A stretch of 64,000 nucleotides of DNA, taken from assembly GCF_027568515.1 (NCBI RefSeq), contig NZ_JANKZF010000018.1, forward strand, positions 1 through 64,000. Direction: 5' to 3'. A program made the translations under genes and the position numbers. The notes under the pieces are model-generated. The model worked only from the letters and a program-made list of their open reading frames with translations, was not told where the DNA came from and did no database searches. The stretch comes from Arthrobacter sp. HY1533. GTDB lineage: Bacteria > Actinomycetota > Actinomycetes > Actinomycetales > Micrococcaceae. This document shows, piece after piece, positions 7,275-36,172 of this stretch (position 1 is its first letter; each line of letters starts with the position of its first letter).

Positions 7275-7701
7275 TCTCAACGGTCAACGGCCGGGCGCAA
7301 TCCACACACCAATCCGCACTGTGGGATTCATTGCCGCACTCAAGGCAGTAAAAACGCATGGTGGCTCCCTGCTCCGGCGGCACAGTGTGCTTGCGTCCCC
7401 ACAGGCTCAGGGCATGAAGAACCGGAAGGGTGTCCGCACCCTTCTCTGTCAGCACATACTCCACCCGGGGCCTCGCGGCGCCGGCATAGGCACTCTTAGC
7501 CAAGAGTCCATGCTCCACCAAGCCCGCAAGGCGTCCACTGAGGACTGAGTCAGCAATGCCCAGCGAATGCTTCAGCGTGTCGAAGCGGCGGTTGCCGGTG
7601 AAGATCTCCCGCAGGATGAGCACCACCCACGGATCCCCTAGCACGTCCAAGGTGCGTGCGATGGGGCAAGCCTGCCCCGACCAGTCCGATCTCAGCGCCA
7701 T
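7210..7701 (-). CDS. HxlR-family transcriptional regulator with C-terminal zinc ribbon
   Basis: A 163-residue winged-helix regulator. The N-terminus CPIARTLDVLGDPWVVLILREIFTGNRRFDTLKHSLGI...LSGRLAGLVEHGLL is a full HxlR domain with the usual conserved cysteine. An extra C-terminal module FYCLECG...WCVDCARP has two CxxC pairs that could bind zinc; most HxlR proteins lack it. It diverges from an EamA permease and presumably controls it; a dyad lies between them at 7758-7780. The ligand is unknown. Confidence 0.88.
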   Translation of the reverse strand: MALRSDWSGQACPIARTLDVLGDPWVVLILREIFTGNRRFDTLKHSLGIADSVLSGRLAGLVEHGLLAKSAYAGAARPRVEYVLTEKGADTLPVLHALSLWGRKHTVPPEQGATMRFYCLECGNESHSADWCVDCARPLTVETTGWRRARSPEILLELRSAGR

Positions 7702-7757
7702 GGTTTCCCTCTTGTCGATTTCGTCGCGGAGCCATCGTCACACCGCCTGTTTTCAAT

Positions 7758-7780
7758 GTTACTATCTTCAGCATAGCTAC
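7758..7780. promoter_or_regulatory. Candidate HxlR operator dyad
   Basis: GTTACTAT (7758-7765) and ATAGCTAC (7773-7780) form an imperfect inverted repeat (6 of 8 positions) around CTTCAGC, in the 100-bp space between the HxlR gene and the divergent permease. An operator is expected here, but the dyad is short and could be chance. Confidence 0.35.
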
Positions 7781-7801
7781 GCATCGATCTGGGAGACCGC
7801 C

Positions 7802-8707
7802 ATGTCAGCAAAACGCGCCCCAACGGTATTGCCCATCGCGTCCGGGCTTTGCGTCGTGGTCCTGTGGGCCAGCGCTTTTCCGGCCATCCGGGCCGCCTCC
7901 CCCGAACTGGGCGTCATTGGGCTGTCCCTGGTGCGCTTGCTGGTGGCGGCCGTTGCCCTGCTGGCCCTTGCCCCGTTTCTCAAGGTCCGCCTTCCGGCCC
8001 GCCGGGACCTTCCCCTGATCATCGCCTGCGCATTCTTTGGCATGACCGCCTATCAACTGCTCCTGAATTGGGGCGAACTGTACGTTCCCGCCGGAACAGC
8101 CAGCATTATCGTGGCGTCGGCCCCGCTGGTCAGCGTCGGCATTGCCGCCTATTTCTTCAAGGAACGAATCTCGGGGATCAAGATTGCCGGCAGCGTGGTG
8201 GCAATTGCCGGCGTCGTTCTGGTGTGCCTGGCCCGCACAGGCGTGAGCCTGTCCGCGGCCGTGTGGATCGTGGTTGCCGCGATGGTGGTCCAGGGCATCT
8301 ACCACCCCCTGACCAAGCCACTGCTGCGCCGGTACACGGGCATGGAGGTGGCCACCTACGGGATGGCGTTTGGCACGGTCATGACGGCACCATTTGTCCC
8401 GTGGGGAATTGCTGACATCTTCTCCGCCGGGACGCCCGCCTGGGTTGCTGCCATCTACCTCGGCTTGTTCCCCTCGGCGCTGGGATTTGTACTGTGGGGC
8501 TACGCCGTGGCACGGCTGAACGTGGCCGCCTCAACGTCCCTGCTGTACCTGGTCCCCCCGGTCGCCGTGGCCATCTCCTTCTTTTGGCTTGGCGAAATTC
8601 CCGTTGCCGGTGAACTGGCAGGCGGGGCCGTGGTCATTGCGGGGGTGGTGTGGCTCAGCCAGGGGGAACGGCTCATGGGCCGCCTGAAGGCCACGCCGGT
8701 GAAGTGA
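7802..8707 (+). CDS. EamA-family (DMT superfamily) permease
   Basis: A 301-residue integral membrane protein with about ten hydrophobic helices arranged as two EamA repeats: residues ~10-145 with WASAFPAIRAASPELGVIGLSLVRLL, and ~155-290 with TSLLYLVPPVAVAISFFWLGEIP. It is a drug/metabolite exporter type; the substrate is unknown. The start at 7802 replaces a longer open frame because MSAKRAPT immediately precedes the first helix. Divergent from the HxlR regulator, which probably represses it. Confidence 0.85.
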   Translation: MSAKRAPTVLPIASGLCVVVLWASAFPAIRAASPELGVIGLSLVRLLVAAVALLALAPFLKVRLPARRDLPLIIACAFFGMTAYQLLLNWGELYVPAGTASIIVASAPLVSVGIAAYFFKERISGIKIAGSVVAIAGVVLVCLARTGVSLSAAVWIVVAAMVVQGIYHPLTKPLLRRYTGMEVATYGMAFGTVMTAPFVPWGIADIFSAGTPAWVAAIYLGLFPSALGFVLWGYAVARLNVAASTSLLYLVPPVAVAISFFWLGEIPVAGELAGGAVVIAGVVWLSQGERLMGRLKATPVK

Positions 8708-8848
8708 ATCCCGTTGTCACCCATTCGCGGGACAATTCGTGCCGCAGGCACCTCCGGGACGGCCCTTGTGTCGGTTTCAGACCTAGAGTTCAAGTGTCCG
8801 GGCATCGCAGCCTCTGTGGCCGCGATTGACTCAGCACGAGGAGGGGCC

Positions 8849-9310
8849 GTGAAGAGGACAGACACAATGGAGCTGGCGGAAGCCTGGGGAACCGGTGTGG
8901 CACATCGGCCGGCGGAGGGCCGGGTGCACCATGCGCTGCTGGCAGCCGAACCCGAGCTGGCGGATTTGGTGGCCCGGTGCGTCGAGACAGCGGGCCCCGG
9001 CCACTGTGCGGACCACGGCACAATACAGGCCAGACTGCTGGCCATGTCCTGCACCCAGGTGCAAAACTGGTTCACTGCCCTGCGCCGCCCTACCGATGCC
9101 GCCCTTGTGGCCAGCATGGCGGCCCGGGACGGCTTCACGGAGCAGACGCTCTGGGACTTCCTCACCGGGGACCCCGGAAAGATTGCCGTTCATAACCGGC
9201 TGGTCCAGTTGCTTGACTCGGAGCTGGTGGAGGAAATCGTGGTTGGTTCCATCCGCCAGGGTTTCCACACCCCGGCCGACAGGCCATCGCGGACCGTTCA
9301 GCCACGGTGA
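8849..9310 (+). CDS. Hypothetical protein, possible helix-turn-helix
   Basis: A 153-residue protein I do not recognise. The start is a GTG behind a very good ribosome site (GAGGAGGGG, 8839-8846); a longer open frame begins at 8714 but has no such site. The middle segment (IQARLLAMSCTQVQNWFTAL then RRPTDAALVASMAARDGF) resembles a Cro/XRE-like helix-turn-helix followed by the helix that usually reads rPs..l...iA. This is a weak inference. It is soluble, with no signal peptide or membrane helix. The stop codon is part of a 12-bp inverted-repeat arm. Confidence 0.55.
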   Translation: MKRTDTMELAEAWGTGVAHRPAEGRVHHALLAAEPELADLVARCVETAGPGHCADHGTIQARLLAMSCTQVQNWFTALRRPTDAALVASMAARDGFTEQTLWDFLTGDPGKIAVHNRLVQLLDSELVEEIVVGSIRQGFHTPADRPSRTVQPR

Positions 9311-9363
9311 ACTTGCAGTAGTGGCCCGTCCCGGAGCCGAAATCGGCAACAACTGCAAGTTCA
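9308..9363. terminator. Inverted repeat between convergent genes
   Basis: TGAACTTGCAGT (9308-9319) and ACTGCAAGTTCA (9352-9363) are perfect 12-bp arms around a 32-nt insert that itself can fold (GCCGA/TCGGC). The left arm begins with the TGA stop of the upstream gene. Its position between two convergent genes suggests a bidirectional terminator, but no U-run is present. Confidence 0.5.
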
Positions 9364-9371
9364 AGCAGAGG

Positions 9372-10106
9372 TCACTTGGCCGGGAACGCCGACGGCCAGG
9401 GCAGCAGCATGGGAAGCTCAACGGAATCGGCGGCGGCCTCGGCGCGCAGGCTGCCCATGGTGGGCGTGCGGCCGGCGAGCCAGGCGGTGATGTCGGTCAG
9501 CATGCCGGAGACGGACACGGCATTGGAGCCGTCGCCCACGGTCATGGGCGGCAGGGCCAGCGGCAGCAGCTTCAGGCGCAGCCCGTCCGGCACGCGCGCG
9601 GACAGGAAGTCGATCAGGTAGAGGCAGAATTCCTTCGACCATGTCTCGGGCCCGCGGCCCAACTGGAGGTCGGCCAGGTGGATGACGAGCTCGCGCCAGT
9701 ACGCCAAGGCACCGTCGCGGACCACGCCGTCGCGGTAGCTGATGGGCAGGGACCACTGATCCTCGTCGAGCCCGTCCAGAACCGTCAGGGCGCGGGTGAA
9801 TGCGCTGGAAATGTACTCGCGGTGCTCCTGGGCTGAGTGTCCGGCGTTCATCTCGATGGCCTGCGTGCGGCCGCCGGGGCCGCCGTCGTAGAACTCGATC
9901 TTTTCCCCGCGCAGCGCGTACTCCGCCTGCCGTGCCACGGCGTTGGAGACGTGGGCGATGTGCGCGAGCACGTGCCCGCGCGTCCAGCCGGGCAGCTCCG
10001 TGGGGGCCAGGACGTCGGCGTCCGTGAGTCCCCCAAGCTTTGAGCCCACATTGTCCGCCGCAGCCTTGAGGCGTTCCATGAGCTGTGCATTAGAAATATC
10101 AGTCAT
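9372..10106 (-). CDS. Mycothiol-dependent maleylpyruvate isomerase family protein
   Basis: A 244-residue member of the MDMPI/DinB-like superfamily. The N-terminal four-helix bundle includes LPGWTRGHVLAHIAHVSNAV, with the conserved histidines that bind the divalent metal, and a C-terminal MDMPI_C-like segment. Characterised relatives isomerise maleylpyruvate using mycothiol, but most members have unknown substrates and there are no aromatic-degradation genes nearby. It lies downstream of argH, separated by a strong hairpin, so it is probably independent. Confidence 0.8.
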   Translation of the reverse strand: MTDISNAQLMERLKAAADNVGSKLGGLTDADVLAPTELPGWTRGHVLAHIAHVSNAVARQAEYALRGEKIEFYDGGPGGRTQAIEMNAGHSAQEHREYISSAFTRALTVLDGLDEDQWSLPISYRDGVVRDGALAYWRELVIHLADLQLGRGPETWSKEFCLYLIDFLSARVPDGLRLKLLPLALPPMTVGDGSNAVSVSGMLTDITAWLAGRTPTMGSLRAEAAADSVELPMLLPWPSAFPAK

Positions 10107-10122
10107 GAACCCAGCCTAGAGC

Positions 10123-10161
10123 AGGAAATGCCCGCATCCACCACGGATGCGGGCATTTCCT
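10123..10161 (-). terminator. argH terminator hairpin
   Basis: A perfect 17-bp stem (10123-10139 with 10145-10161) with a 5-nt loop lies 28 nt beyond the argH stop on the minus strand and ends the argGH transcript before the MDMPI gene. Confidence 0.75.
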
Positions 10162-10189
10162 TGTGCACACCAGCTGCGTTCGACGCGGG

Positions 10190-11626
<1,437 letters not shown>

Positions 11627-12832
11627 CTACTGTCCTGCGACGCGCTGGTCGCGGGTGGAAGCAACCTTGGAAGACATGCCCCACAGCTCGATGAAGCCCT
11701 TGGCCTGCGACTGGTCGAAGGTGTCGCCGGTGTCGTAGGTGGCCAAATCGAAGTCGTAGAGGGAGGTCTCGGAGCGGCGGCCGTTCACGATGGCCTGGCC
11801 ACCGTGGAGGGTCATGCGGATGTCGCCGGAGACGTACTTCTGGGTGTCTTCGATGAAGGAGTCCAAGGAGCGCTTCAGCGGGGAGAACCACTGGCCGTCG
11901 TAAACCAGCTCGGCCCAGCGCTGGCTGACAGTTGCCTTGAAGCGGGCCTGCTCGCGCTCCAGGGTGATGTCTTCGAGGTGCTTGTGGGCGGTGATGAGGG
12001 CCATGGCGCCGGGGGCTTCGTAGATTTCGCGGCTCTTGATGCCAACGAGGCGGTCCTCGACGACGTCGATGCGGCCAACACCCTGGGCGCCTGCGCGGCG
12101 GTTCAGTTCCTGGATGGCCTGCAGCGGGGAAACCTTGATGCCGTCAATGGCAACGGGCACGCCCTGGTGGAAGGAGATGATGACCTCGTCCGGTGCCGGC
12201 GGGAATTCCGGGGTGGCCGTGTAGTCGTAAATGTCCTTGGTGGGGGCATTCCAGATGTCTTCCAGGTAGCCGGTTTCGACGGCACGGCCCCAGACGTTCT
12301 GGTCAATCGAGTACGGGTTCTTCTTGGTGGTCTCGATGGGCAGGTTGTTGGCCTCGGCGTAGGCAATGGCCTTGTCGCGGGTCAGGGCCAGGTCGCGGAC
12401 GGGTGCAATGCACTTCAGGTCCGGGCCCAGGGTCTGGATGCCGACCTCAAAGCGGACCTGGTCGTTGCCCTTGCCGGTGCAGCCGTGGGCAACAGTGGTG
12501 GCGCCGAATTCGCGGGCAGCCTTGACCAGGTGCTTGACGATCACGGGGCGGGAGATGGCCGAAACCAGCGGGTAGTGGCCCTGGTAGAGGGCGTTGGCCT
12601 TCAGGGTGGGCATGGCGTATTCGTTGGCGAACTCGTCGCGTGCGTCTGCAACGTAGGCTTCGACGGCGCCGCAGCCCAGGGCGCGCTGGCGGATGTCCTC
12701 GAGGGACTCGCCACCCTGTCCAACGTCAACGGCCACGGCAATAACCTCGGCCCCGGTTGCTTCACCGATCCAGCCAATGGCCACGGACGTGTCAAGGCCG
12801 CCGGAGTAGGCCAATACAATGCGCTCAGTCAC
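11627..12832 (-). CDS. argG: Argininosuccinate synthase
   Basis: Joins citrulline and aspartate using ATP. It is 401 residues long, with the N-type ATP-binding loop AYSGGLDTS at residues 9-17 and the conserved stretch KGNDQVRFE. The start is a GTG with AAGGGAGAG upstream. The ~70-nt leader contains a strong ArgR-type dyad at 12894-12907. It is followed after 6 nt by argH. Together argGH form a unit separate from argC-J-B-D-F-R. Confidence 0.97.
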
Positions 12833-12893
12833 TTTTTCTCTCCCTTTGTGTGTTGCTGGTCAAACGTGTGTTTCCCGTTGCACACCAGCATAG

Positions 12894-12907
12894 TGCATGA
12901 TTATGCA
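12894..12907. promoter_or_regulatory. Candidate ArgR operator (ARG box) upstream of argG
   Basis: TGCAT (12894-12898) and ATGCA (12903-12907) form a perfect dyad around GATT, in an otherwise AT-rich patch 60-75 bp upstream of the argG start. The size and base content fit half an ARG box, and argR is in the same cluster. Possible promoter hexamers overlap it (minus-strand CATAAT or TATGCT). The assignment is inferred from position and symmetry. Confidence 0.5.
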
Positions 12908-13106
12908 TTCTTGCTAAAAGATATTCACGGCGCGCCCGAAGCCCCCGTTCGGCGCGGGGACAGCCCCCGAAAACACCACAGGGCGGCGGCCGGCCTGCTG
13001 GCGCCGCACACGGAATCTGGGGCAAGATGGACGGCGAACAGATGTGGCCTGCCGCTTGGACGGCACGGGCCCAACATTAGCCGCGAAGCCCGGAGGATTT
13101 TCGAAA

Positions 13107-21147: not shown

Positions 21148-22122
21148 ATGACCGAGCACTGCAATGCCATTGTCGCCGCAAACCCCGGCGGACCGGACGT
21201 CCTGGAACTGGTGCAGCACCCCGTCCCCGTCCCCGGCCCCGGCGAATTGCTGGTCAAGGTGGCGGCCGTCGGCGTGAACTTCATTGAAAGCTACCAGCGC
21301 GAGGGCATCTACAAGGTCCCCTTCCCCTTCACCCCCGGCGCAGAGGCGGCCGGCACGGTGGCCGCGGTGGGGCCCGGGGTCACCTCGCACTCCGTGGGCG
21401 ACCGCGTCGCCACGGCCGAGGGCATTGCCTGCTACGCCGAATACGCCATCTTCCCGGCTGTGGCGGCCCTGCCCGTGCCCTCAAACCTCCCGCTGGACAT
21501 TGCCGCGGCACTCCCCCTGCAGGGCATGACGGCCCACTACCTGATGAACTCCACCTACCATGTGGAGCCGGGCCAAACAGTGCTGGTGCACGCCGGGGCC
21601 GGCGGGGTGGGCCTGCTGCTGACCCAGATGCTCAAGGAGCGCGAGGCCAGGGTCATCACCACCGTGTCCACGGAGGAGAAGGAAGAGCTGTCCCGCGTGG
21701 CAGGGGCGGACGAGGTGCTGCACTACGGCGACTTTGCCGCGGCCGTGCGCGAGTACACCGACGGCGTGGGCGTGGACGTGGTGTACGACGGCGTCGGGAA
21801 GGACACGTTCGACGGTTCCCTCGCGTCGCTGCGCACCAGGGGGACCATGGTCCTGTTCGGCGGGTCCTCGGGCCAGGTGCCCCCCTTTGACATCCAGCGC
21901 CTGAACGCCGGCGGCTCGCTGACCCTTGTCCGGCCCAAGCTGAACGACTACCTGCTCAACGCCCGGGAACGCATGTGGCGCTCCACCGAGGTGTTCAATG
22001 CCGCGGCCGCCGGAACCCTGACGGCGAGGATCGGGGCACGCTTCCCGCTGGCCGAGGCAGGTGCGGCACACACCGCCCTGCAGGGCCGCGCCACCACCGG
22101 CAAGGTGATCCTGCAGCCGTAG
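21148..22122 (+). CDS. Quinone oxidoreductase (zeta-crystallin-like MDR)
   Basis: A 324-residue NADPH-dependent medium-chain reductase without structural zinc cysteines. It has the GroES-like N-terminal domain (GVNFIESYQREGIYK, typical of Qor), a Rossmann fold with HAGAGGVGLLLTQM, and the MVLFGGSSGQVPP stretch. It probably reduces quinones or enones under oxidative stress. It diverges from argC across 156 bp and is followed by a hydrolase gene after 60 bp. The physiological substrate cannot be assigned. Confidence 0.9.
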   Translation: MTEHCNAIVAANPGGPDVLELVQHPVPVPGPGELLVKVAAVGVNFIESYQREGIYKVPFPFTPGAEAAGTVAAVGPGVTSHSVGDRVATAEGIACYAEYAIFPAVAALPVPSNLPLDIAAALPLQGMTAHYLMNSTYHVEPGQTVLVHAGAGGVGLLLTQMLKEREARVITTVSTEEKEELSRVAGADEVLHYGDFAAAVREYTDGVGVDVVYDGVGKDTFDGSLASLRTRGTMVLFGGSSGQVPPFDIQRLNAGGSLTLVRPKLNDYLLNARERMWRSTEVFNAAAAGTLTARIGARFPLAEAGAAHTALQGRATTGKVILQP

Positions 22123-22182: not shown

Positions 22183-22809
22183 ATGAAGAGACTGCCCAAC
22201 GGGGCCTTCCTGCTGGAAAAATCACGCGGCGCCAACGGCTATGTGGTGGCCAGCGGAGAACAGCTGGCCCTGATTGACCCCGGCATGGCCGGCGGCGCGT
22301 CCGGCGTGATTGCCGAACTTCGGGACGCCGGGATGCTCGGCGCGGTCCGCGACGTGCTGTTGACGCACTACGACGTGGACCATGCCGGTGCCGCCATGGC
22401 CGTGGCAGCGGCGGCCGGGGCAAGCCTGTGGATCACCCGGCTCGATGCCCAGGTGCTGACGGGGCAGGTGAGGCCGGCCACTGTTTTCCGGCGCCTCAGC
22501 ACCTCCTTTGGCAAGCCTCGGCTGCCGGGGACGGTTTCCTACATTGGCGAATCGGCCGGCTTCCCCACGGGCGTTGAGGCAGTTCCGGCGCCGGGCCACA
22601 CGCCCGGCCATGTGGCTTTCCGTTGGCAGGAATCACTGTTCTGCGGCGATGCCGCCCTGGTGCGCAGGGACGGTTCGCTGCGGCAGTTTCCCGGCTTCAT
22701 CATCACCGACAAGCCCCTGGCCCTGCGGACCGCGGCCGCGCTTGAGGCCCTGGACGTTGACTGGGTGTGCCCGGGCCACGGCAGGCCCACCCGAAAATTG
22801 CGGTCCTAG
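22183..22809 (+). CDS. Metallo-beta-lactamase-fold hydrolase
   Basis: A 208-residue MBL-fold protein. The metal motif reads LLTHYDVDHAG, an HxDxDH variant of the usual HxHxDH. Further ligands lie in APGHTPGHVAF (His), LFCGDAAL (Asp) and CPGHGRP (His). It resembles glyoxalase-II-like or lactonase-like hydrolases; the substrate is unknown. It lies just before the peptide synthetase in the same direction, with 21 bp or more between them, so co-transcription is possible but a role in the pathway is unproven. Confidence 0.85.
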   Translation: MKRLPNGAFLLEKSRGANGYVVASGEQLALIDPGMAGGASGVIAELRDAGMLGAVRDVLLTHYDVDHAGAAMAVAAAAGASLWITRLDAQVLTGQVRPATVFRRLSTSFGKPRLPGTVSYIGESAGFPTGVEAVPAPGHTPGHVAFRWQESLFCGDAALVRRDGSLRQFPGFIITDKPLALRTAAALEALDVDWVCPGHGRPTRKLRS

Positions 22810-22830: not shown

Positions 22831-25800
22831 TTGCCTGCCGTTAACCTTGCGTTGGTGTTGATGGTGGATGGTGGGCGCGTGAACCATCCCCCCATGCAAC
22901 TGCCCAGCATTGCCCCCGCCGCCGCAGCCCAGTTCCTTCCCCAGATGCCCGGCAGCGCCCTGGCGCCGGAGCCGCGCACCCTGTGGGACATCGTCCGGGC
23001 CACGGCACTGCTCCACCCCGAGGCCACGGCGCTGGACGACGGCGTGAAGTCCCTCAGTTACGCCGAACTGCTCGCGGCCGTCAAGGACAAGGCACGGGAA
23101 CTCGTGCAGGCGGGCCTGGGCCCCGGGGACCGGATAGGGGTCCGCATCCCCTCCGGCACCGCCGCCCTCTACCTCGCCATCCTGGGCATCATCTCCATCG
23201 GGGCCGCCTATGTCCCCGTGGATGCCGACGACCCCGAGGAGCGGGCAGCACTGGTCTTTGGCGAGGCGCAAGTTGCGGCCGTGCTGGTCGATCCGCTGGC
23301 CGGTGCGGCCCTGGTGCCCGCAGGGCAACGCCCGTCGCCGCATCCCGCGCCGCGGGAACCCCTGCCCACGGACGACGCCTGGATCATCTTCACCTCCGGC
23401 TCCACCGGCACCCCGAAGGGCGTGGCCGTCAGCAACCGCTCCGCCGCCGCCTTCGTCGACGCCGAGGCCCGCATTTTCCTGCAGTCCGCACCCATCGGCC
23501 CCGAGGACCGTGTGCTGGCGGGGCTGTCGGTGGCCTTCGACGCCTCATGTGAAGAAATGTGGCTGGCCTGGCGCCACGGGGCTGCCCTGGTGCCCGCGCC
23601 CCGGTCGCTGGTCCGCTCCGGCATGGACCTGGGCCCCTGGCTCATCTCGCACGGCATCACAGTTGTTTCCACGGTGCCCACCCTGGCCGCACTGTGGCCG
23701 GCCGAGGCACTGGAATCGGTGCGCCTGCTGATCTTTGGCGGCGAGGCCTGCCCGCCGGAACTCGCTGCCCGGCTTGCCGTCAAGGGCCGTGAAGTCTGGA
23801 ACACCTACGGCCCCACCGAGGCCACAGTGGTGGCCTGCGCCGCACCCCTGGGCGGACCCGGTCCGGTGCGGATCGGCCTGCCGCTGAACGGCTGGGACCT
23901 GGCCGTGGTGGATCCGGCCGGGGCGCCGGTGGCGGAAGGGGAGGTGGGGGAACTCATCATCGCCGGGGTTGGCCTTGCCCGCTACCTGGATCCGGCCAAG
24001 GACGCCGAAAAGTACGCACCTATGCCGGCCTTCGGCTGGGATCGTGCCTACCGCAGCGGCGACCTGGTCCGGCTTGAGGGCGAGGGCCTGGTGTTCATGG
24101 GCCGGGCCGACGACCAGGTGAAGCTTGGCGGGCGCCGCATCGAGCTTGGTGAAATTGATGCAGCCCTGCAGTCGCTGCCGGGGATTTCCGGTGCCGCCGC
24201 CGCCGTCCAGGACACGGCAGGCGGAAGCCAGCTGCTGGTGGGCTACCTGGTCCCGGCCGCAGGCACTGACCCAGACCCCGCCGCCTTGCGCGCCCTGCTG
24301 GCCGAATCCCTGCCGGCAGCCTTGATTCCCCTGCTCACCTTCACCGATTCCCTGCCCACCAAGACCAGCGGCAAGGTTGACCGCAAGGCCCTGCCGTGGC
24401 CGCTGGAACAGGCCGGGGACAGCGGCGACTCCCTCGCCGGATCAGTGGACCCGGCCACGCAGTGGGTGCTCGACCAGTGGCAGTCGGTGCTGGGCAGCAC
24501 ACCGTCCTCGCTCGACACCGACTTCTTCGCCAGCGGCGGCGGCAGCCTGGCCGCAGCCCAGCTGGTCTCCGCCCTGCGCCGGCGCTACCCGCGCATCACG
24601 GTGGCCGACGTCTACTCCCACCCCCGCATTGGTGCACTGGCGGAACTGGCCGTCGGCTCCGCCCCTGCCGGGGCAGGGGACGACGCACCGTCCCGGACCG
24701 TGGGCAGGACCCGCCGCGGCTCGCAGGTGTTCCAAACGCTCATGGGCGTTCCGCTGCACATCCTGGTGGGCATGCGCTGGCTCACCTGGCTGCTGGTCCT
24801 GAACAATGTTGCTGCCGGGCTGGGCATCCTGCCCGGGGCACCCACCGTTTCCTGGTGGTGGGTGGCTGCCTCCTGGGCCGTCTTCGTCTCCCCGTGGGGG
24901 CGCATGGGGATCTCCGTGGTGTCGGCCCGGCTGCTGCTGCGCGGCGTCCGGCCGGGCAGCTATCCGCGCTCCGGCGGCGTGCACCTTCGGCTGTGGCTGG
25001 CGGAACAAATCGCCGACATGGCCGGTGCCGTCACCCTGGCCAGCGCACCCTGGGTGCCGTACTACGCCCGGGCGCTGGGTGTGAAGATGGGCAGGAATGT
25101 TGACCTGCACTCCGTGCCGCCCGTCACGGGGCTGCTGCGCCTGGCCGAAGGCGCCTCGGTGGAACCGGAGGTGGACCTGTCCGGCTGGTGGATCGACGGC
25201 GACTGGGTGCACATTGGCGAAATCTCCATCGGCGCCGGCGCCGTGGTCGGCGCCCGCAGCACCTTGATGCCCGGTGCGCGCATCGGTGCCGGCGCCCACG
25301 TGGCACCGGGATCCGCCGTGCGCGGCAAGGTCAAGTCCGGCGTGGTGGTCTCCGGCTCCCCCGCCGAACGCACAGGCAAGGCCAGGGACACTTGGCCGGG
25401 GCTGCGCACATCTGCCGGCTGGCGCCGTGAGCTCTGCTTTGCTGCCGCCTCCGGGCTCCTTTCCCTGCTGCCAATCGTTGCCGCCGCCGCGGCCGCAGCA
25501 ATCGTCTTTGCTGCAATCAACGGCCAGCACTCGCTCTCCGCTGCCGCGCCCACTCTCCTGTGGGCAGTCCCCCTGGCAGCCCTGGCCTGGTTCCTTGTCC
25601 TGATGGTGCTGGTCCTGGCCACCGTCCGCCTTTTGGGATTGGGGCTGCGGGAGGGCCACTACCTCGTCCGCAGCCGGATCGGCTGGCAGGTGTGGGCCAC
25701 CGAGCGTGTCCTGGACATGGCCCGCGACTTGCTGTTCCCCATCTACGCCAGCCTCTTCACCCCCGTGTGGCTGCGCCTGCTCGGCGCCAAGGTGGGCAAG

Positions 25801-26826
25801 AACGTGGAAGCCTCAACCGTGCTCCTGCTGCCGAAGATGACAACCATCGGCGCAGGCGCCTTCCTGGCAGACGACACCATGATCGCCTCCTATGAGCTGG
25901 GCGGCGGCTACATCCACATTGCACCCGCCAAGGTGGGCAAACGGTCCTTCCTGGGCAATTCCGGCATGGCCGCCGCCGGGCGCACCATGCCCCGCAATTC
26001 ACTGGTTGCCGTGCTGTCGGCAGCACCCGCAAAGGCCAAGGCAGGCACGTCCTGGCTGGGCAGCCCGCCTGTGCGCCTGCGCCGCACCAACGTGGACACG
26101 GACAAGTCGCTGACCTTCAACCCGCCTTTTCGGCTGAAGGTGGCCAGGGCGTTGTGGGAGAGCTGCCGGCTGGTGCCGGTGGTCTTGACCGTGGGCATCG
26201 CGGCTGCGGTATTGGCCGTGTTCGACGCCGTCGCCCTCGCCTCCGGCTATTGGCTGGCAGCCGCGCTCAGTGGCGTCGTCATGATGGCGGCCGGCGCCGT
26301 TGCGGCTGGCAGCTCGGTGGCCGCCAAGTGGCTGCTGGTGGGCCGCATCAAGGCCGGCGAGCACCCCTTGTGGAGCTCCTTCATCTGGCGCAACGAGGTG
26401 GTGGACTCCTTCATTGAGCTGGTCAGTGCGCCCTGGTTTGCCCGTGCCGCCGTGGGCACACCCGCCATGGTGTGGTGGCTGCGTGCGCTGGGGGCCAAGA
26501 TCGGCCACGGCACCTGGTGCGAGAGCTACTGGCTGCCCGAGGCAGACCTGGTCACCCTCGGCGAGAGCTCCACCATCAACCGGGGCTGCGTCATCCAGAC
26601 CCACTTGTTCCATGACCGGGTCATGGCCATCGATGCGGTTACGCTGGAGGCGGGGGCCACCATGGGCCCGCACGGGGTGATCCTGCCGGCGGCCTGCATC
26701 GCCACGAGCGGCACCGTGGGCCCGGCCTCACTTGTCATGCGCGGGGAAACCGTCCCTGCCAGCAGCTACTGGATGGGCAACCCCATCAGCCCCTGGAAGG
26801 GTCCGGAATTCGCGGACCGCGCCTAA
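22831..26826 (+). CDS. Pls/PosA-type membrane non-ribosomal peptide synthetase (candidate poly-epsilon-amino acid synthetase)
   Basis: A 1331-residue single-module synthetase. The adenylation domain (~50-520) has FTSGSTGTPKG, NTYGPTEAT, YRSGDLV and the catalytic lysine in TKTSGKVD. The carrier domain has pantetheine Ser572 in FFASGGGS. After ~640 come six hydrophobic segments in three pairs, interleaved with three hexapeptide-rich domains (e.g. ISIGAGAVVGARSTLMPGAR). There is no thioesterase or ordinary condensation domain. This is the layout of epsilon-poly-L-lysine synthetase (Pls), in which the three tandem C-terminal domains iteratively form isopeptide bonds. The start is uncertain: TTG 22831, ATG 22861, GTG 22879 and ATG 22894 are in frame, and none has a strong ribosome site. 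I give the longest. Confidence 0.9.
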   Translation: MPAVNLALVLMVDGGRVNHPPMQLPSIAPAAAAQFLPQMPGSALAPEPRTLWDIVRATALLHPEATALDDGVKSLSYAELLAAVKDKARELVQAGLGPGDRIGVRIPSGTAALYLAILGIISIGAAYVPVDADDPEERAALVFGEAQVAAVLVDPLAGAALVPAGQRPSPHPAPREPLPTDDAWIIFTSGSTGTPKGVAVSNRSAAAFVDAEARIFLQSAPIGPEDRVLAGLSVAFDASCEEMWLAWRHGAALVPAPRSLVRSGMDLGPWLISHGITVVSTVPTLAALWPAEALESVRLLIFGGEACPPELAARLAVKGREVWNTYGPTEATVVACAAPLGGPGPVRIGLPLNGWDLAVVDPAGAPVAEGEVGELIIAGVGLARYLDPAKDAEKYAPMPAFGWDRAYRSGDLVRLEGEGLVFMGRADDQVKLGGRRIELGEIDAALQSLPGISGAAAAVQDTAGGSQLLVGYLVPAAGTDPDPAALRALLAESLPAALIPLLTFTDSLPTKTSGKVDRKALPWPLEQAGDSGDSLAGSVDPATQWVLDQWQSVLGSTPSSLDTDFFASGGGSLAAAQLVSALRRRYPRITVADVYSHPRIGALAELAVGSAPAGAGDDAPSRTVGRTRRGSQVFQTLMGVPLHILVGMRWLTWLLVLNNVAAGLGILPGAPTVSWWWVAASWAVFVSPWGRMGISVVSARLLLRGVRPGSYPRSGGVHLRLWLAEQIADMAGAVTLASAPWVPYYARALGVKMGRNVDLHSVPPVTGLLRLAEGASVEPEVDLSGWWIDGDWVHIGEISIGAGAVVGARSTLMPGARIGAGAHVAPGSAVRGKVKSGVVVSGSPAERTGKARDTWPGLRTSAGWRRELCFAAASGLLSLLPIVAAAAAAAIVFAAINGQHSLSAAAPTLLWAVPLAALAWFLVLMVLVLATVRLLGLGLREGHYLVRSRIGWQVWATERVLDMARDLLFPIYASLFTPVWLRLLGAKVGKNVEASTVLLLPKMTTIGAGAFLADDTMIASYELGGGYIHIAPAKVGKRSFLGNSGMAAAGRTMPRNSLVAVLSAAPAKAKAGTSWLGSPPVRLRRTNVDTDKSLTFNPPFRLKVARALWESCRLVPVVLTVGIAAAVLAVFDAVALASGYWLAAALSGVVMMAAGAVAAGSSVAAKWLLVGRIKAGEHPLWSSFIWRNEVVDSFIELVSAPWFARAAVGTPAMVWWLRALGAKIGHGTWCESYWLPEADLVTLGESSTINRGCVIQTHLFHDRVMAIDAVTLEAGATMGPHGVILPAACIATSGTVGPASLVMRGETVPASSYWMGNPISPWKGPEFADRA

Positions 26827-26854
26827 TCCCACCGAATCGGACACCGACCACCGC

Positions 26855-28231
26855 ATGAGATCCCCCCACCGCACATGGCCATCCACCCTGGCTCCCGAGG
26901 CAGGCCCGGCCGCCCCGGACCCGTACATTCCCGGGCACGGCAGCACCAGCTACACAGTGGAACACTACGAGCTGGTGCTGGACGTCCGCCTGGCCGGGAA
27001 CCAACTCCAGGCGCGGGCCGTGATCACGGCCCGCGCCCTGGTTCCGCTGGCCACAGTGGACCTTGACCTCACGGGGCTGGGCATGGACAAGGCGTCAGTG
27101 GATGGCGTGCGCGTGGCCAAGCACACCCACCGGCAGGGCAGGCTGCAACTGCAGCTGCCCACAGCCGTGGAGGCCGGGGCCGCCTTCACCATGGACATCC
27201 GCTACAGCGGCTTCCCCTCCCCTGATGATGGCGCCTGGGGAGAGGTTGGCTGGGAGGAACTTCAGGACGGCGTGCTCGTGGCCGGCCAGCCCACCGGCGC
27301 CCCGACGTGGTTCCCCTGCAACGACAGGCCGGACAACAAGGCCACCTATGGATTCACCGTCACCACTGACGCCAACTACACCGCCGTGTGCAACGGCAGG
27401 CTCGTCTCGCACACCCGGAAGTCCAGCCGTGACATTTGGGTCTACGAGCAGGCAGAACCGATGGCAAGCTACCTGGCCACAGTGCAGATTGGGCGGTACG
27501 GCCTGCTGGCCCTGCCCGCTGCACAGGACCAGCAGCAGCTGCCCATCACTGTGGCCGTGCCCAAGGCGCTGGCGGCCCGGGCGGCCAGGGCGCTGGCCCG
27601 GCAGCGGGAAATGGTGGACGTCTTCACCCAGTGCTTTGGCCCCTACCCCTTCGCCGGCTACACGGTGGTGGTCACGGAGGACGAGCTGGAGATCCCGCTG
27701 GAGGCGCAGTCCCTTTCCATCCTGGGCCGCAACCACCTGGACACAGGCTGGGAATCGCAGCGCCTGATTGCCCATGAGCTCTCACACCAGTGGTTTGGCA
27801 ACTCCCTGACCCTTGCGTCCTGGCGCGACATCTGGCTGCACGAGGGCTTCGCCTGCTATGCCGAGTGGCTATGGTCGGAAGAGAGCGGCTCCATGACGGT
27901 TGCCGAGCGTGCCGCCGCAGCGCATGCAAAGTTGCTTGCGGAGCCCGCCGGGCTGGCCGTCGGGGATCCGGGGGCCGAGAGAATGTTTGACGACGCAGTG
28001 TACAAGCGCGGCGCCCTGGCCCTGGAGGCACTGCGGTCCGCGGCCGGCGACGAGCTGTTCTTCGCGCTGCTGCACCGCTGGGTGGCGGAGAACCAACACG
28101 GCTCGGTCTCCACGCCGGCGTTCACGGCGCTGGCGGACCGGGTATGCGCCGGCGTGCCGGGCTTCAGCGCCCAGAGTGTCCTGGCGCCGTGGCTGTATCA
28201 GCAGGACCTGCCTGCGCTGCCACTCCCCTAG
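26855..28231 (+). CDS. M1-family zinc metallopeptidase
   Basis: A 458-residue aminopeptidase-N-like enzyme, shorter than full PepN (~850) because it ends soon after the catalytic domain. An N-terminal beta domain (~20-220) is followed by the zinc site HELSHQWFGN (His307, Glu308, His311) and Glu330 in LHEGFACYAEW, with exact HExxH-x18-E spacing. There is no signal peptide, so it is probably cytosolic. It starts 28 bp after the synthetase, surely in the same transcript. Characterised epsilon-polylysine-degrading enzymes of Streptomyces are zinc aminopeptidases, so trimming or self-protection is a reasonable inference. The longer open frame into the synthetase gene was rejected. Confidence 0.9.
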   Translation: MRSPHRTWPSTLAPEAGPAAPDPYIPGHGSTSYTVEHYELVLDVRLAGNQLQARAVITARALVPLATVDLDLTGLGMDKASVDGVRVAKHTHRQGRLQLQLPTAVEAGAAFTMDIRYSGFPSPDDGAWGEVGWEELQDGVLVAGQPTGAPTWFPCNDRPDNKATYGFTVTTDANYTAVCNGRLVSHTRKSSRDIWVYEQAEPMASYLATVQIGRYGLLALPAAQDQQQLPITVAVPKALAARAARALARQREMVDVFTQCFGPYPFAGYTVVVTEDELEIPLEAQSLSILGRNHLDTGWESQRLIAHELSHQWFGNSLTLASWRDIWLHEGFACYAEWLWSEESGSMTVAERAAAAHAKLLAEPAGLAVGDPGAERMFDDAVYKRGALALEALRSAAGDELFFALLHRWVAENQHGSVSTPAFTALADRVCAGVPGFSAQSVLAPWLYQQDLPALPLP

Positions 28232-28929
28232 AGGCCGCCAGAGCGGCCGCCGTGCGCCAGCGCCACGGCGAATCCGTCGGGCAGCCCCAGCTCCCCCGGG
28301 CCCATTGAGCGCACCACGACGCCGGCCCAGGGGCCGTCCGCGGCACCGTCCGAGAACGCCGGAATGGTGGCGGGATCAGTGCGCAACCCCTGCCCGGAGT
28401 GCTTGGCCAACGCCTCCTTGCGCGCCCAGGCGTCCGCCCGCCAGGCATCACGTAGTGCCGGCGGCAACCCGCCCAGGCGCCGCTGTTCGGCCGGACTCAG
28501 CGCCACGCCGTCGAACCCGGGAAACCCAACCGAGGCAATGTGCTGGATGTCGACACCCAGCCGCAGGCCGTGGGCCGGCAGCATGGCCATGACGGCCCAG
28601 CCGCTGCTGCGCGACAGGCTGAGGGACACGCCGCCCGCCCCTCCGCGCAGCCGGTAGCCCGGGCGGCCGTGCGCCAGGTCCGGCCCGGACCCGCAGTCCG
28701 GGCACACGTAGGCGGTCTCGAGCGCGGCGGGTTCGCAGCCAAGCAATTCGGCGGCCGCGAGGCGCTGGGCGATGCGCCCGGCTAGGAATTCGCGGCGCGT
28801 GGCGGTGTCGGCAATGGTGTTGGCCCGGCCGTGTTCGGCCGGATCAAGCAGTGGCGCCAAATCCTGCCCGACGGCGGCCAGGTCAAAGGCGCGCACAATC
28901 GGCCCGGCTGCCGAAGCCCCGTTCACCAT
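28228..28929 (-). CDS. Sfp-type 4'-phosphopantetheinyl transferase
   Basis: Transfers phosphopantetheine from CoA to the carrier serine of peptide or polyketide synthases. It has 233 residues. The magnesium/CoA motif is GVDIQ (125-129, Asp127) and the second is WARKEALAKHSGQGL (Lys171, Glu172). Two CxxC-like cysteines (VCPDCG, 76-79) are unusual for the family. GGAGG seven bases before the ATG fixes the start. It converges on the M1 peptidase gene with a 4-bp overlap and is the obvious activator of the neighbouring synthetase. It is too divergent to be the AcpS of fatty-acid synthesis. Confidence 0.88.
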   Translation of the reverse strand: MVNGASAAGPIVRAFDLAAVGQDLAPLLDPAEHGRANTIADTATRREFLAGRIAQRLAAAELLGCEPAALETAYVCPDCGSGPDLAHGRPGYRLRGGAGGVSLSLSRSSGWAVMAMLPAHGLRLGVDIQHIASVGFPGFDGVALSPAEQRRLGGLPPALRDAWRADAWARKEALAKHSGQGLRTDPATIPAFSDGAADGPWAGVVVRSMGPGELGLPDGFAVALAHGGRSGGL

Positions 28930-28981
28930 CCCAACACCTCCTGTCCACCTTTTGTCTTCCCGGCATCCGTAGGCTCTTGCC

Positions 28982-29866
28982 ATGACTGAACCACGCCCCG
29001 ATTTCACCGGATTTTCTGTGCTTGACAACGACGACGACGATCCAGTGCTGCTCGCCCCGGATGGCTCGCAGGTGGACACCTGGCGCGATGGCTACCCCTA
29101 TGGTGCGCGGCTGGACCGGGACGCCTACGACACCGACAAGCGCCTGCTGCAGATCGAGTTGCTGAAGTTGCAGCAATGGATCAAGGCTACCGGGCGCAGG
29201 GTGGTGATCCTCTTCGAGGGGCGCGACGCGGCCGGCAAGGGCGGGACCATCAAGCGTTTCACCGAGCACCTGAACCCGCGCGGCGCACGCGTCGTGGCCC
29301 TGGAGAAGCCCAGCCGGCGCGAGTCGACGCAGTGGTACTTTCAGCGCTACGTTTCCCACCTGCCCAGCGCCGGGGAACTCGTGCTGTTCGACCGCTCCTG
29401 GTACAACCGGACGGGCGTGGAGCGGGTCATGGGTTTTTGCACCAAGGAGCAGTACGACGAGTTCATCCGCCAGGCGCCATTGTTTGAGCGCATGCTGGCC
29501 AACGACGGAATGACTGTCATCAAGTTCTGGTTCTCCGTCACGCAGGCCGAGCAGCGCACGCGCTTCATCATCAGGCAGGTGGACCCCGTCCGGCAGTGGA
29601 AGCTTTCACCCATGGACCTGGCCTCGCTGGACAAGTGGGATGCGTACACCTCGGCCAAGGAGCGCATGTTCAAGCGCACCGACACGCGGCATGCCCCCTG
29701 GACCGTCGTGAAGTCCAATGACAAGAAACGGGCCAGGCTTGAGGCCATGCGCCATGTGCTGAGCCTGTTTGAGTACACGGGCAAGGACCACGGGCTGGTG
29801 GGCGTGCCGGATCCGCTCATTGTGGGCCCGGCCTCCGCCGTGGTGGGCGAGGGCGAGGAGTTCTAG
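28982..29866 (+). CDS. ppk2: Polyphosphate kinase 2 (class I type)
   Basis: Transfers phosphate between polyphosphate and nucleoside diphosphates, mainly to regenerate ATP or GTP. It is 294 residues, single-domain. Walker A is FEGRDAAGKGGT and Walker B/lid is VLFDRSWYNR; QWYFQRYVSHLP is typical of class I one-domain PPK2. An acidic patch (NDDDD) lies near the N-terminus. It diverges from the transferase gene across 52 bp. A link to the ATP-hungry synthetase nearby is speculative. Confidence 0.92.
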   Translation: MTEPRPDFTGFSVLDNDDDDPVLLAPDGSQVDTWRDGYPYGARLDRDAYDTDKRLLQIELLKLQQWIKATGRRVVILFEGRDAAGKGGTIKRFTEHLNPRGARVVALEKPSRRESTQWYFQRYVSHLPSAGELVLFDRSWYNRTGVERVMGFCTKEQYDEFIRQAPLFERMLANDGMTVIKFWFSVTQAEQRTRFIIRQVDPVRQWKLSPMDLASLDKWDAYTSAKERMFKRTDTRHAPWTVVKSNDKKRARLEAMRHVLSLFEYTGKDHGLVGVPDPLIVGPASAVVGEGEEF

Positions 29867-33628: not shown

Positions 33629-36172
33629 TCAGCGCTGGGTGGCGCCGAACCTTTCGGCTGCCAGTTCCACGGCCGACGCGCGCGCGGCCGAGGCCTCGTC
33701 CGAAGTCAGCGTGCGGTCGGCTGCACGGAAGCGCATTCCGAAGGCGAGCGACTTGCTGCCCTCGGGGATGCCGGTGCCCTGGTACTCATCGAACAGTGCA
33801 ACATCTTCCAGCAGCTCGCCGGCGCCTTCGCGCAGGGTCTCCAGCACTGCCTGTGCCGGGATCTCCACGGGAACCACCAGGGCTACGTCCTGCGTGGCCA
33901 CGGGGAACGTGGAGATGGGCTTGGCCACGATCACGTCGGGGGCCTGGGCAAAGACCTTGTCCGCGTTGATCTCCATGGCCACCGAACGTGCCGGCATGTT
34001 CAGCTCGGCCAGCAGCTTCGGGTGCAGCTCTCCGGCGTAGCCCACCACGTCGCCGTTGCGCAGCGACAGCTGTGCGGCGCGGCCGGGGTGGAACGCCTGG
34101 TGCGAACCCTGGGTGACGACCAGTTCCACGCCCACGACGTCGGCGACCAGGCGGGCGGCGTCAACAGCGTCGGCCCAGTCCCAGGCCCGCGGCGTGTGGC
34201 CGGGGGCAGCAGGTGAGTCCTTGCCCGTGAACACGGCCGCCATGGTGAGCGGCTGGTACGGGATGCCGTCGTACAGGGCATCCAGCACGTCCTCGGAGGG
34301 CTTGACGCCCAGCGGGGGGATGGATGCGGTGCCGAGTGTGCCGTCCGGCAGGAACACCAGGCCTGACTCGAACAGGGCCAGGTCGTGGAAGCCGCGGGAG
34401 TGGTTGCGCTTGGCAATTTCAATCAGGCCCGGCAGCACCGAGGTGCGCAGGTAGCCGAATTCCTCGCTGAGCGGGTTGGCCAGCTTCACGGCACTGCGTG
34501 CGGCACCGGCCTCGGCCACGCCGAAGGTGTCGTTGGAAGCCTTGGACACGAACGGGTAGGCCAGGATTTCGGTCAGACCAGAATCCGCCAGGGCCTGCAC
34601 CACGCGGCGGCGCTGCTGCTGCGTGCGCGAGTAGCCGCGGCCGGGAGGGGCCGTGGGCAGCGTGGCCGGGATGAGGTCGTAGCCCACCAGGCGGGCCACC
34701 TCCTCGGTCAGGTCGTCCTTGGTGGCCAGGTCGTGGCGCCAGCTCGGGGCAGCGACGGAGTAGCCGCCGTCGACCTTTTCCACCACTGCGCCGAGGTCCG
34801 TCAGCGATCCCATGACCTGGGACTGCGAGAACTCGATGCCGATGCGGGCCGAGGTGTAGCCCAGGGGCAGGAACACCGGCGCGGCCGGGGTCACGGAGCC
34901 GGCGTCGGTGGAGGTGGTTTCCTCCGTGCCGCCGGCCAGCTCAACGAGCAGGTCCACGGCGCGCTGGGCGGCAATGGCGGAAATGGCCGGGTCCACGCCG
35001 CGTTCGAAGCGCTTGGACGCCTCGGACGGCAGCTTGTGGCGGCGGCGCGAGCGCGAGATTGAGACTTCCTCGAAGTGCGCGGCCTCAATCAACACAGTCG
35101 TGGTCTCGGAGGAGACCTCGGTGGAGGCCCCGCCCATGACGCCGGCAATGCCGATGGGACCTGTGGAATCGGTGATCAGGAGGTCCTCGGCGTCGAGCTT
35201 GCGGACCTTCCCGTCAAGGGTTTCCAGGGTCTCGCCGGCGGCTGCGCGGCGCACCACAATGGTGCCGGCCACCTTGGCGGCGTCGTAGAAGTGCAGCGGC
35301 TGGCCGAGCTCAAGCATGACGTAGTTGGAGATGTCCACGGGCAGGGAGATGGAGCGGATCCCGGCCAGGCGCAGGCGCGAGGACATCCACGGCGGGGTGG
35401 GTGCCGCCGGGTTGATGCCGGACACGGTGCGGGCGACGAAGCGGTCGCAGCCGGGCTTGCCGTAGATGGGGGCGTCGTCGGAAAGATCGACGGCGTGGCC
35501 CTCACCGGAGGACGGCGTGACCGTCACCAGCGAGGCCGGGTCGGTGAACACGCTGTCCGTGGCGTGCGCGTACTCGCGGGCAACGCCGCGGATGCTGAAC
35601 GCGTAGCCGCGGTCCGGGGTGACGTTGATTTCGGCGGCTTCGTCGTCCAGGCCCAGCAGGGCCAGCGCGTCGGTGCCCAGTTCCGGATCAAGGCCCAGGG
35701 TGGAGAGCACCAGGATGCCGTCGTGGTCCTCTCCAATGCCGAGTTCACGCACGGAGGCGATCATGCCGGCCGAGACGTGGCCGTAGGTCTTGCGGGGCGT
35801 GATGCGGAAGTCCCCGGGCAGCACGGCGCCGGGCAGGGTGACAACAACCTTGTCCCCCACCTCGAAGTTGTGTGCGCCGCAGACAATGCCCTGCACGCCT
35901 GAGGGGTCAATCCCGTCAATGTCCAGCGTCTGTGCGGCGCCCTCGGGCACCACGCGGACGGAGCACCAGTTGATGGTCTTGCCGTTGGACTGTGCCTCCG
36001 GCTCCTTCGACAGGACCTGGCCCACCACAATGGGGCCGCTGATCGTGTCGAGGGGGCGGTGCACATCCTCTTCTTCAAAGCCGACCTTCACAAGGTCGTT
36101 CATGACGTCTTCGGCAGTTGCTCCTGCCGGCACCTGCGCATACTCGCGCAGCCAAGTCAGTGGAATACGCAC
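33629..36172 (-). CDS. pheT: Phenylalanyl-tRNA synthetase beta subunit
   Basis: The large subunit of the alpha2-beta2 enzyme. It has 847 residues with the normal domain order: EMAP/tRNA-binding fold (~40-150), B3/B4 editing domain (~210-400), B5 domain, the catalytic-like core and a C-terminal FDX-ACB anticodon-binding domain (~750-847, FPVATQDVALVVPVEIPA). The start is a GTG four bases after the pheS stop, so the two subunits are co-translated. Confidence 0.97.
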   Translation of the reverse strand: MRIPLTWLREYAQVPAGATAEDVMNDLVKVGFEEEDVHRPLDTISGPIVVGQVLSKEPEAQSNGKTINWCSVRVVPEGAAQTLDIDGIDPSGVQGIVCGAHNFEVGDKVVVTLPGAVLPGDFRITPRKTYGHVSAGMIASVRELGIGEDHDGILVLSTLGLDPELGTDALALLGLDDEAAEINVTPDRGYAFSIRGVAREYAHATDSVFTDPASLVTVTPSSGEGHAVDLSDDAPIYGKPGCDRFVARTVSGINPAAPTPPWMSSRLRLAGIRSISLPVDISNYVMLELGQPLHFYDAAKVAGTIVVRRAAAGETLETLDGKVRKLDAEDLLITDSTGPIGIAGVMGGASTEVSSETTTVLIEAAHFEEVSISRSRRRHKLPSEASKRFERGVDPAISAIAAQRAVDLLVELAGGTEETTSTDAGSVTPAAPVFLPLGYTSARIGIEFSQSQVMGSLTDLGAVVEKVDGGYSVAAPSWRHDLATKDDLTEEVARLVGYDLIPATLPTAPPGRGYSRTQQQRRRVVQALADSGLTEILAYPFVSKASNDTFGVAEAGAARSAVKLANPLSEEFGYLRTSVLPGLIEIAKRNHSRGFHDLALFESGLVFLPDGTLGTASIPPLGVKPSEDVLDALYDGIPYQPLTMAAVFTGKDSPAAPGHTPRAWDWADAVDAARLVADVVGVELVVTQGSHQAFHPGRAAQLSLRNGDVVGYAGELHPKLLAELNMPARSVAMEINADKVFAQAPDVIVAKPISTFPVATQDVALVVPVEIPAQAVLETLREGAGELLEDVALFDEYQGTGIPEGSKSLAFGMRFRAADRTLTSDEASAARASAVELAAERFGATQR

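Follow-up and report, generated by a model that had tools for sequence, protein, structure and literature searches.

A putative epsilon-poly-L-lysine locus in Arthrobacter in which a class I polyphosphate kinase 2 gene joins the synthetase, peptidase and phosphopantetheinyl transferase genes

Which genes does a bacterium keep together around a synthetase for a cationic isopeptide polymer, and do three of them complete the set? The question is raised by a locus in Arthrobacter sp. HY1533 which lies in the first 64,000 nucleotides of contig NZ_JANKZF010000018.1 (assembly GCF_027568515.1); this whole stretch is referred to as the window. The sequence-only reading described a self-contained locus of three genes, a Pls-type synthetase, an M1 peptidase and a phosphopantetheinyl transferase (PPTase), that would make, activate and trim a cationic isopeptide polymer of unstated type. 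The locus itself was confirmed, as were its three genes, but the trimming is less well supported and the three-gene extent is incomplete, a gene for a class I polyphosphate kinase 2 (PPK2) having been missed. We favour, with a probability of roughly three in four, an epsilon-poly-L-lysine locus that has grown into a unit of four genes, comprising Pls, a PldII-like M1 peptidase, a PPTase that would activate Pls and a PPK2 that would supply it with ATP. The coordinates are collected in Table 1.

The synthetase gene, pls, is a single open frame of 1331 codons. Its start is uncertain, as no ribosome-binding site is evident before the TTG at 22831, and a GTG at 22879 and an ATG at 22894 are alternatives. 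The match to TIGR02353 is full-length, covering Pls residues 633-1319 and profile positions 1-695 of 695, and its score lies far above the cut-off of 423 bits. The A domain and the carrier domain were both found by Pfam, whilst AMP-binding_C at residues 441-515 scored 23.6 bits, just below its cut-off of 24.5. The carrier serine is Ser572 (codon 24544-24546), and serine occupies this position in all 76 aligned Pls rows. Neither a condensation nor a thioesterase domain is among the five Pfam families matched by the synthetase. The description of a Pls-type enzyme with an A domain, carrier Ser572 and no thioesterase was therefore correct, and the carrier serine and the A-domain motifs are intact. 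Three pairs of hydropathy peaks in the C-terminal region (residues 639-678, 876-930 and 1117-1160, ie positions 24745-24864, 25456-25620 and 26179-26310) probably represent six membrane segments; the first pair is weak (1.54 and 1.13), and peaks equally high are also found inside the A domain. A single hexapeptide stretch, residues 798-832, is above the Pfam threshold. Weak matches to left-handed beta-helix enzymes were obtained at about residues 795-853, 1005-1096 and 1239-1320, with best E values of 0.0015, 0.027 and 0.011, respectively.

The substrate pocket is composed of D237, A238, E241, S280, I301, G303, T325, V333, V334 and K515 (DAESIGTVVK; K515 codon 24373-24375), the positions having been placed with what we take to be the motifs of GrsA. 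The same code is present in 69 of the 76 aligned rows, the remaining seven being five rows of a distant group and two that are cut short. It is also the code of 7wew, as read by eye from the A-domain alignment. This crystallised epsilon-poly-L-lysine synthase is the nearest solved relative of the A domain, at 655 bits compared to 191 bits for 8g95, which is PosA (PMC10522769). At pocket position 2, alanine has been tied to lysine, phenylalanine to poly-diaminopropionate (PDAP) or poly-diaminobutyrate (PDAB), and methionine to PosA, and the complete codes of PosA (DMEHNGTVSK) and of the poly-beta-lysine enzyme (DGESISVVNK) both differ from the present one (PMC10522769). The pocket and the similarity to 7wew therefore lead to the prediction that epsilon-poly-L-lysine is the likely product, and this narrows the earlier claim, in which the cationic isopeptide polymer stood and its type was left open. 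Poly-ornithine, poly-diaminobutyrate, poly-diaminopropionate or poly-beta-lysine would agree equally well with the architecture, which is common to the whole family (TIGR02353; PMC10522769), and the prediction of substrates from pocket codes is imperfect. However, with alanine at position 2 and an A domain so much closer to 7wew than to PosA, another polymer is less likely, and we consider it very improbable.

Two further kinds of synthetase were encountered. Four class genomes of family f23 (L163, L164, L166 and L167) encode distant Pls-like synthetases, 32-33% identical, with the pockets DFEYIGTVTK or DFEYLGTVTK, in which the phenylalanine at position 2 suggests a shorter diamino acid. An M1 peptidase with a signal-like segment is encoded about 0.8 kb downstream, and such an apparently secreted neighbour looks unusual. 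Several family genomes (G397, G345, G459 and similar ones) have a second Pls-family synthetase elsewhere, 42-45% identical, beside the lysine-type one.

The new part of the unit is the PPK2 gene. Its product matches TIGR03707 with 378 bits against a cut-off of 302. The Walker B motif, DRSWY at residue 137, is followed by Asn, which by the published rule (PMC8776046), applied here by eye, makes the enzyme class I. The N terminus carries an acidic tract, DNDDDDP. In a survey of 197 family genomes, 150 PPK2 matches were listed, and Pls-family matches were present in 111 genomes. The 32 best of the 150, which are 71-100% identical to the window PPK2, are all situated 1.5-5.8 kb from a Pls match, and in 32 of 32 cases downstream of it on the same strand. 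For the other 118 PPK2s listed there is no Pls match within 20 kb, and where a contig carries both, the smallest distance is 102 kb; their identity reaches 72%, over a shorter stretch. Amongst full frames, all 36 linked PPK2s aligned have an N-terminal acidic run of at least four residues, and in a set of 20 unlinked ones three reach a run of three. On the PPK2 tree, which includes one row of only 165 amino acids, the linked group requires a single change relative to the 20 unlinked copies.

The position of the gene is not fixed. It comes straight after the M1 gene in L195 and L199, both of which have the PPTase gene upstream, just upstream of pls in L193 and L198, and downstream in reverse orientation in L179. 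The last of these loci (Arthrobacter sp. Y81, 7045-13071) has a Pls without an M1 match, and the reversed PPK2 gene is about 1.1 kb downstream. In the family genome G452 (C1, about 640507-645507) stops interrupt the Pls frame as well as that of the linked PPK2, which looks like joint decay of the unit.

Within the genus the four genes occur together. A full Pls is encoded in eight of the 23 genomes, and the M1 gene, a PPTase of at least 53% identity and a PPK2 of at least 80% identity are present in exactly those eight; at E 1e-100 the genus has just one other PPK2 match, in G007, with 66% identity. The 15 other genomes have the adh gene, and none of the four genes was found within their stretches of 18.6-19.4 kb. 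The order adh, pls, M1, PPTase, PPK2, pheT is observed in six of the eight (the window, G018, G019, G012, G005 and, from two stretches, G010, where PPTase and PPK2 lie several kb beyond M1), and the stretches of the other two, G001 and G003, end before pheT. In 14 of the 15 genomes that lack pls, pheT comes after adh with none of the four genes between them, the stretch of G007 being too short to reach pheT. The distance from adh to pheT, measured between alignment ends, is only about 55 and 40 bp in G014 and G022, respectively. On a tree of argC plus adh the pattern of presence requires six changes, at least three of which are forced by well supported branches, so that gain or loss of the four genes as a set must have happened repeatedly. 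Matches to adh and argC on the upstream side and to pheT on the downstream side were present in 28, 23 and 22, respectively, of a set of 80 named loci, one of which (L186) is the genus member G005; some of the adh matches are distant. The same borders in other genera of the family favour an old locus with repeated losses.

The PPTase gene converges on the M1 gene, the two 3' ends overlapping by 4 bp, and begins with the ATG at 28929 behind AGGAGG. The product of 233 amino acids matches PF01648 with 33.6 bits (cut-off 25) and contains GVDI and AWARKEA, in agreement with what we take to be the hallmarks of Sfp-type enzymes, namely G-V-D, W..KEA and a length of about 230 residues. No solved structure was matched by sequence up to E 0.1. 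There are two PF01648 matches in the genome, this PPTase and a frame of 118 amino acids, the size of AcpS. At 53% identity or above the PPTase is absent from all 15 genus genomes without Pls, five of which have weaker matches. Seven weaker PPTases of the genus, three of them in Pls-bearing genomes, are encoded about 3 kb from large non-ribosomal peptide synthetase (NRPS) genes and form two other sets on the PPTase tree, from which four rows with neither motif (L104, L112, L119 and L201) were left out. The window row belongs to a set of eight, all pls-linked, with support of 100/94 (seven genus genomes, one of them twice). A general PPTase serving NRPSs is less likely, given this grouping. The synthetase matches listed for the window genome (three of four) are Pls and frames of 545 and 585 amino acids, with no large NRPS among them. 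The genus co-occurrence and the tree agree with the earlier view that the PPTase belongs with the locus, and its linkage leads us to infer that it would modify this Pls.

Outside the genus, 26 of the 33 named loci that have a PPTase gene show it converging on M1, no more than about 0.6 kb from the end of that gene. By their names, all 33 belong to Micrococcaceae or Microbacteriaceae, and one (L201) lacks both motifs, as do three of the 16 PPTase matches in loci of the wider class. No PPTase was found in the stretches of the Nocardia, Rhodococcus, Mycobacterium and Kribbella loci among the 80. The 20 genomes of family f10 have no linked PPTase, yet each has two or three PF01648 matches, so that Pls in these genomes may depend on a different PPTase.

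The M1 frame begins with the ATG at 26855, 28 bp past the pls stop, so that a zinc peptidase directly behind the synthetase was correctly recognised from the sequence. Its zinc motif, HELSH(18)E, starts at residue 307 (27773-27844), and E283, H307, E308, H311 and E330 are invariant in all 151 rows of an alignment of the window protein with its relatives, none of which is named as Streptomyces albulus PldII. Comparison of synteny, a check suggested at the outset, placed an M1 gene after pls in 64 of 67 loci of the wider class, where M1 frames overlapping pls by more than 200 bp from stop to stop but ending beyond it were counted as downstream; the gene is present in 78 of the 80 named loci. No signal-like segment was seen at the N terminus of the window protein by hydropathy, a method too weak to fix the location of the enzyme. 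Over 15 residues, only four of 149 M1 rows exceed a hydropathy of 1.6, and all four are from the distant group in which the synthetase pocket differs. PldII of S. albulus has been described as an external membrane enzyme (PMC9223678), and inactivation of Pld and PldII altered neither production nor the degree of polymerisation (PMC8506220). Since the chain length was unchanged by that loss, and no signal-like segment was seen, a trimming role is not favoured, and self-protection or recycling is the likelier function by analogy.

The gene directly upstream of pls, which encodes a hydrolase of the metallo-beta-lactamase fold, was considered as a member of the unit and rejected, as relatives of 51-62% identity are found near adh or pheT in eight genus genomes that lack pls. 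Amongst the other pls-bearing genus genomes a relative is present only in G012, beyond PPK2, and there is none in the 80 named loci at E 1e-20. No RNA leader was indicated, there being no Rfam match at the gathering score between 17000 and 32000.

Table 1. Positions in the window of the pls unit, its parts and its neighbours
Feature	Position	Strand	Basis
adh/quinone-oxidoreductase-like gene, upstream border	21148..22122	+	beside argC in 23/23 genus genomes (including the window)
Metallo-beta-lactamase-fold hydrolase gene, directly upstream of pls	22183-22809		
pls, putative epsilon-poly-L-lysine synthetase	22831..26826	+	TIGR02353 701 bits; 7wew A domain 655 bits
A domain (AMP-binding, residues 58-384)	23002..23982	+	Pfam
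Carrier (T) domain, PP-binding, residues 544-606	24460..24648	+	Pfam
Pls/PosA C-terminal polymerisation region	24727..26787	+	TIGR02353; weak: hydropathy pairs, beta-helix stretches
Three beta-helix-like stretches in Pls (weak evidence)	about 25213-25389, 25843-26118, 26545-26790	+	matches to left-handed beta-helix enzymes
PldII-like M1 zinc peptidase	26855..28231	+	PF01433, PF17900, HELSH(18)E
Sfp-type 4'-phosphopantetheinyl transferase (PPTase)	28228..28929	-	PF01648, motifs
Gap between the divergent PPTase and PPK2 starts, 52 bp	28930..28981	.	coordinates
Class I polyphosphate kinase 2 (PPK2), pls-linked group, fourth gene	28982..29866	+	TIGR03707
pheT, far-side gene	33629..36172	-	genus comparison

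A working scheme for the unit can be outlined, in which the product, the mechanism, the activity of PldII and the benefit of an added PPK2 are taken by analogy from published work on relatives. The PPTase would attach the phosphopantetheine arm to Ser572, and the A domain would load L-lysine, converting ATP to AMP and pyrophosphate. Each lysine added by Pls costs one such step from ATP to AMP. The membrane-bound C-terminal region would then link the side-chain amine of lysine to the next carboxyl and pass the chain out, and the PldII-like peptidase would hydrolyse polymer harmful to the cell. Adenylate kinase would convert AMP to ADP, from which the class I PPK2 would regenerate ATP with polyphosphate, thus keeping Pls supplied. 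Through its acidic tail the kinase may stay close to the synthetase or to the cationic product. A more specific version, in which a family-specific PPK2 with an Asp-rich tail is inherited with Pls and regenerates ATP locally, with its tail bound to the nascent polycation or the synthetase and a dedicated PPTase completing the unit, is put forward tentatively and with somewhat less than even confidence. That PPK2 feeds Pls we infer from their linkage.

Several observations count against the four-gene unit as outlined. Corynebacterium variabile, which has an intact Pls, gave no polymer in culture, and expression of Pls in Corynebacterium glutamicum yielded none either (PMC8117764). Two of the eight genus copies of Pls, those of G001 and G003 (L072/L264 and L074), are split into two frames. 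The branch that unites the linked PPK2s is weak (51/20; 46% of bootstrap trees). Among the matches listed, only 32 family genomes have a linked PPK2, whereas 111 have a Pls-family match and 92 a Pls that is at least 56% identical, 60 of these 92 being without it; it occurs in none of the 67 wider-class loci. Pls therefore does not need PPK2, which is an accessory. The pls-linked PPTases do not constitute one group on the tree (two changes; 34% of bootstrap trees unite them), those of other families do not group with the window PPTase, and a PPTase is near only 33 of the 80 named loci and 16 of the 67 class loci. As the class I PPK2 best studied does not use AMP (PMC8776046), an adenylate kinase must also be assumed.

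Alternatively, Pls and PldII would act alone, with PPTase and PPK2 as hitch-hikers at a chromosomal site whose genes are lost or relocated en bloc. Wherever a stretch reaches pheT, the unit is flanked by adh and pheT, these borders recur in other genera, the PPTase gene is convergent and so outside the operon, and the 60 genomes mentioned above do without a linked PPK2. On the other hand, the linked PPK2s are precisely the 32 best of the 150 listed and have the acidic tail in common, and both PPK2, in its several positions, and PPTase, upstream in L195 and L199, stay with pls despite rearrangement, which would not be expected of hitch-hikers. We judge this explanation unlikely. That the locus is silent or decaying here, and no polymer is made, would be in keeping with the two split copies, the 15 of 23 genus genomes without the locus, the silence of C. 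variabile in culture (PMC8117764) and the TTG start of pls, which lacks an evident ribosome-binding site. In the window genome, however, no stop interrupts any of the four frames and each catalytic motif examined is intact; a silent or decaying locus is rated rather improbable. The kinase might alternatively make or manage polyphosphate as a counter-ion of the cationic polymer, instead of providing ATP for Pls. An acidic tail in every linked PPK2 could be read in this way, and some class I enzymes also synthesise polyphosphate, but the Pseudomonas aeruginosa class I enzyme has a 75-fold preference for phosphorylating nucleotides (PMC8776046), and addition of a PPK2 to S. albulus increased its ATP (PMC10012588). 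A counter-ion role is accordingly given a low probability, and supply of ATP remains the preferred function of the kinase.

Epsilon-poly-L-lysine is an industrial antimicrobial food preservative, and its production is limited by ATP (PMC10012588). The naturally linked and possibly dedicated PPK2 and PPTase are two candidates for use in production in non-filamentous hosts. Absence of a suitable PPTase could be the reason that no polymer was obtained from Pls in C. glutamicum; the authors of that study point to the promoter and regulation (PMC8117764). The retention of an Asp tract on a kinase encoded beside a polycation synthetase also raises the question of how cells handle such a polymer. The pls-peptidase operon and the existence of Pls homologues in Arthrobacter are already known (PMC8117764). 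No description of PPK2 or PPTase at a pls locus was found in titles and abstract openings, drawn from a set mostly without subscription papers, nor is either gene placed at the pls locus in the available portions of PMC10012588, PMC11274744, PMC8776046, PMC8949500, PMC4668381 and PMC4361855.

Four known systems can be compared with the present locus. PosA, the delta-poly-L-ornithine synthetase of Acinetobacter baumannii (PMC10522769), belongs to the same family and has the same plan of A domain, T domain and membrane region, but it differs in its pocket, DMEHNGTVSK instead of DAESIGTVVK, and in its much lower A-domain score. In S. albulus the gene downstream of pls overlaps it by 4 bp in a single operon (PMC4361855) and encodes an aminopeptidase (PMC9223678). 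The synthetase family, the lysine-type pocket and the aminopeptidase gene directly downstream are shared with the present locus, which has a gap of 28 bp in place of the overlap and is accompanied by genes for a convergent PPTase and for a PPK2; no mention of either was found for the Streptomyces operon in the available portions of the literature. The coryneform Pls, of which the C. variabile product was proven in a study that also names Arthrobacter among the genera with homologues (PMC8117764), resembles the present one in forming an operon with a peptidase in non-filamentous actinobacteria; the words phosphopantetheinyl and pantetheine are absent from the main text of that paper. The closest parallel to the fourth gene was built by hand. 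In S. albulus, introduction of PPK2B by itself gave gains of 30% in ATP and 18% in poly-lysine, and in combination with PAP the gains were 72% and 21%, respectively (PMC10012588). Both systems combine Pls with a PPK2, which in the present one is predicted to regenerate ATP from ADP as well, although the engineered pair came from C. glutamicum (PPK2) and Acinetobacter (PAP), no PAP was found in Pfam scans covering 16 of the window's frames, and the PPK2 described here is a natural neighbour of pls. If the more specific version outlined above is correct, nature would have built the same energy-recycling scheme that engineers put into S. albulus in 2023, along with an activating PPTase of its own.

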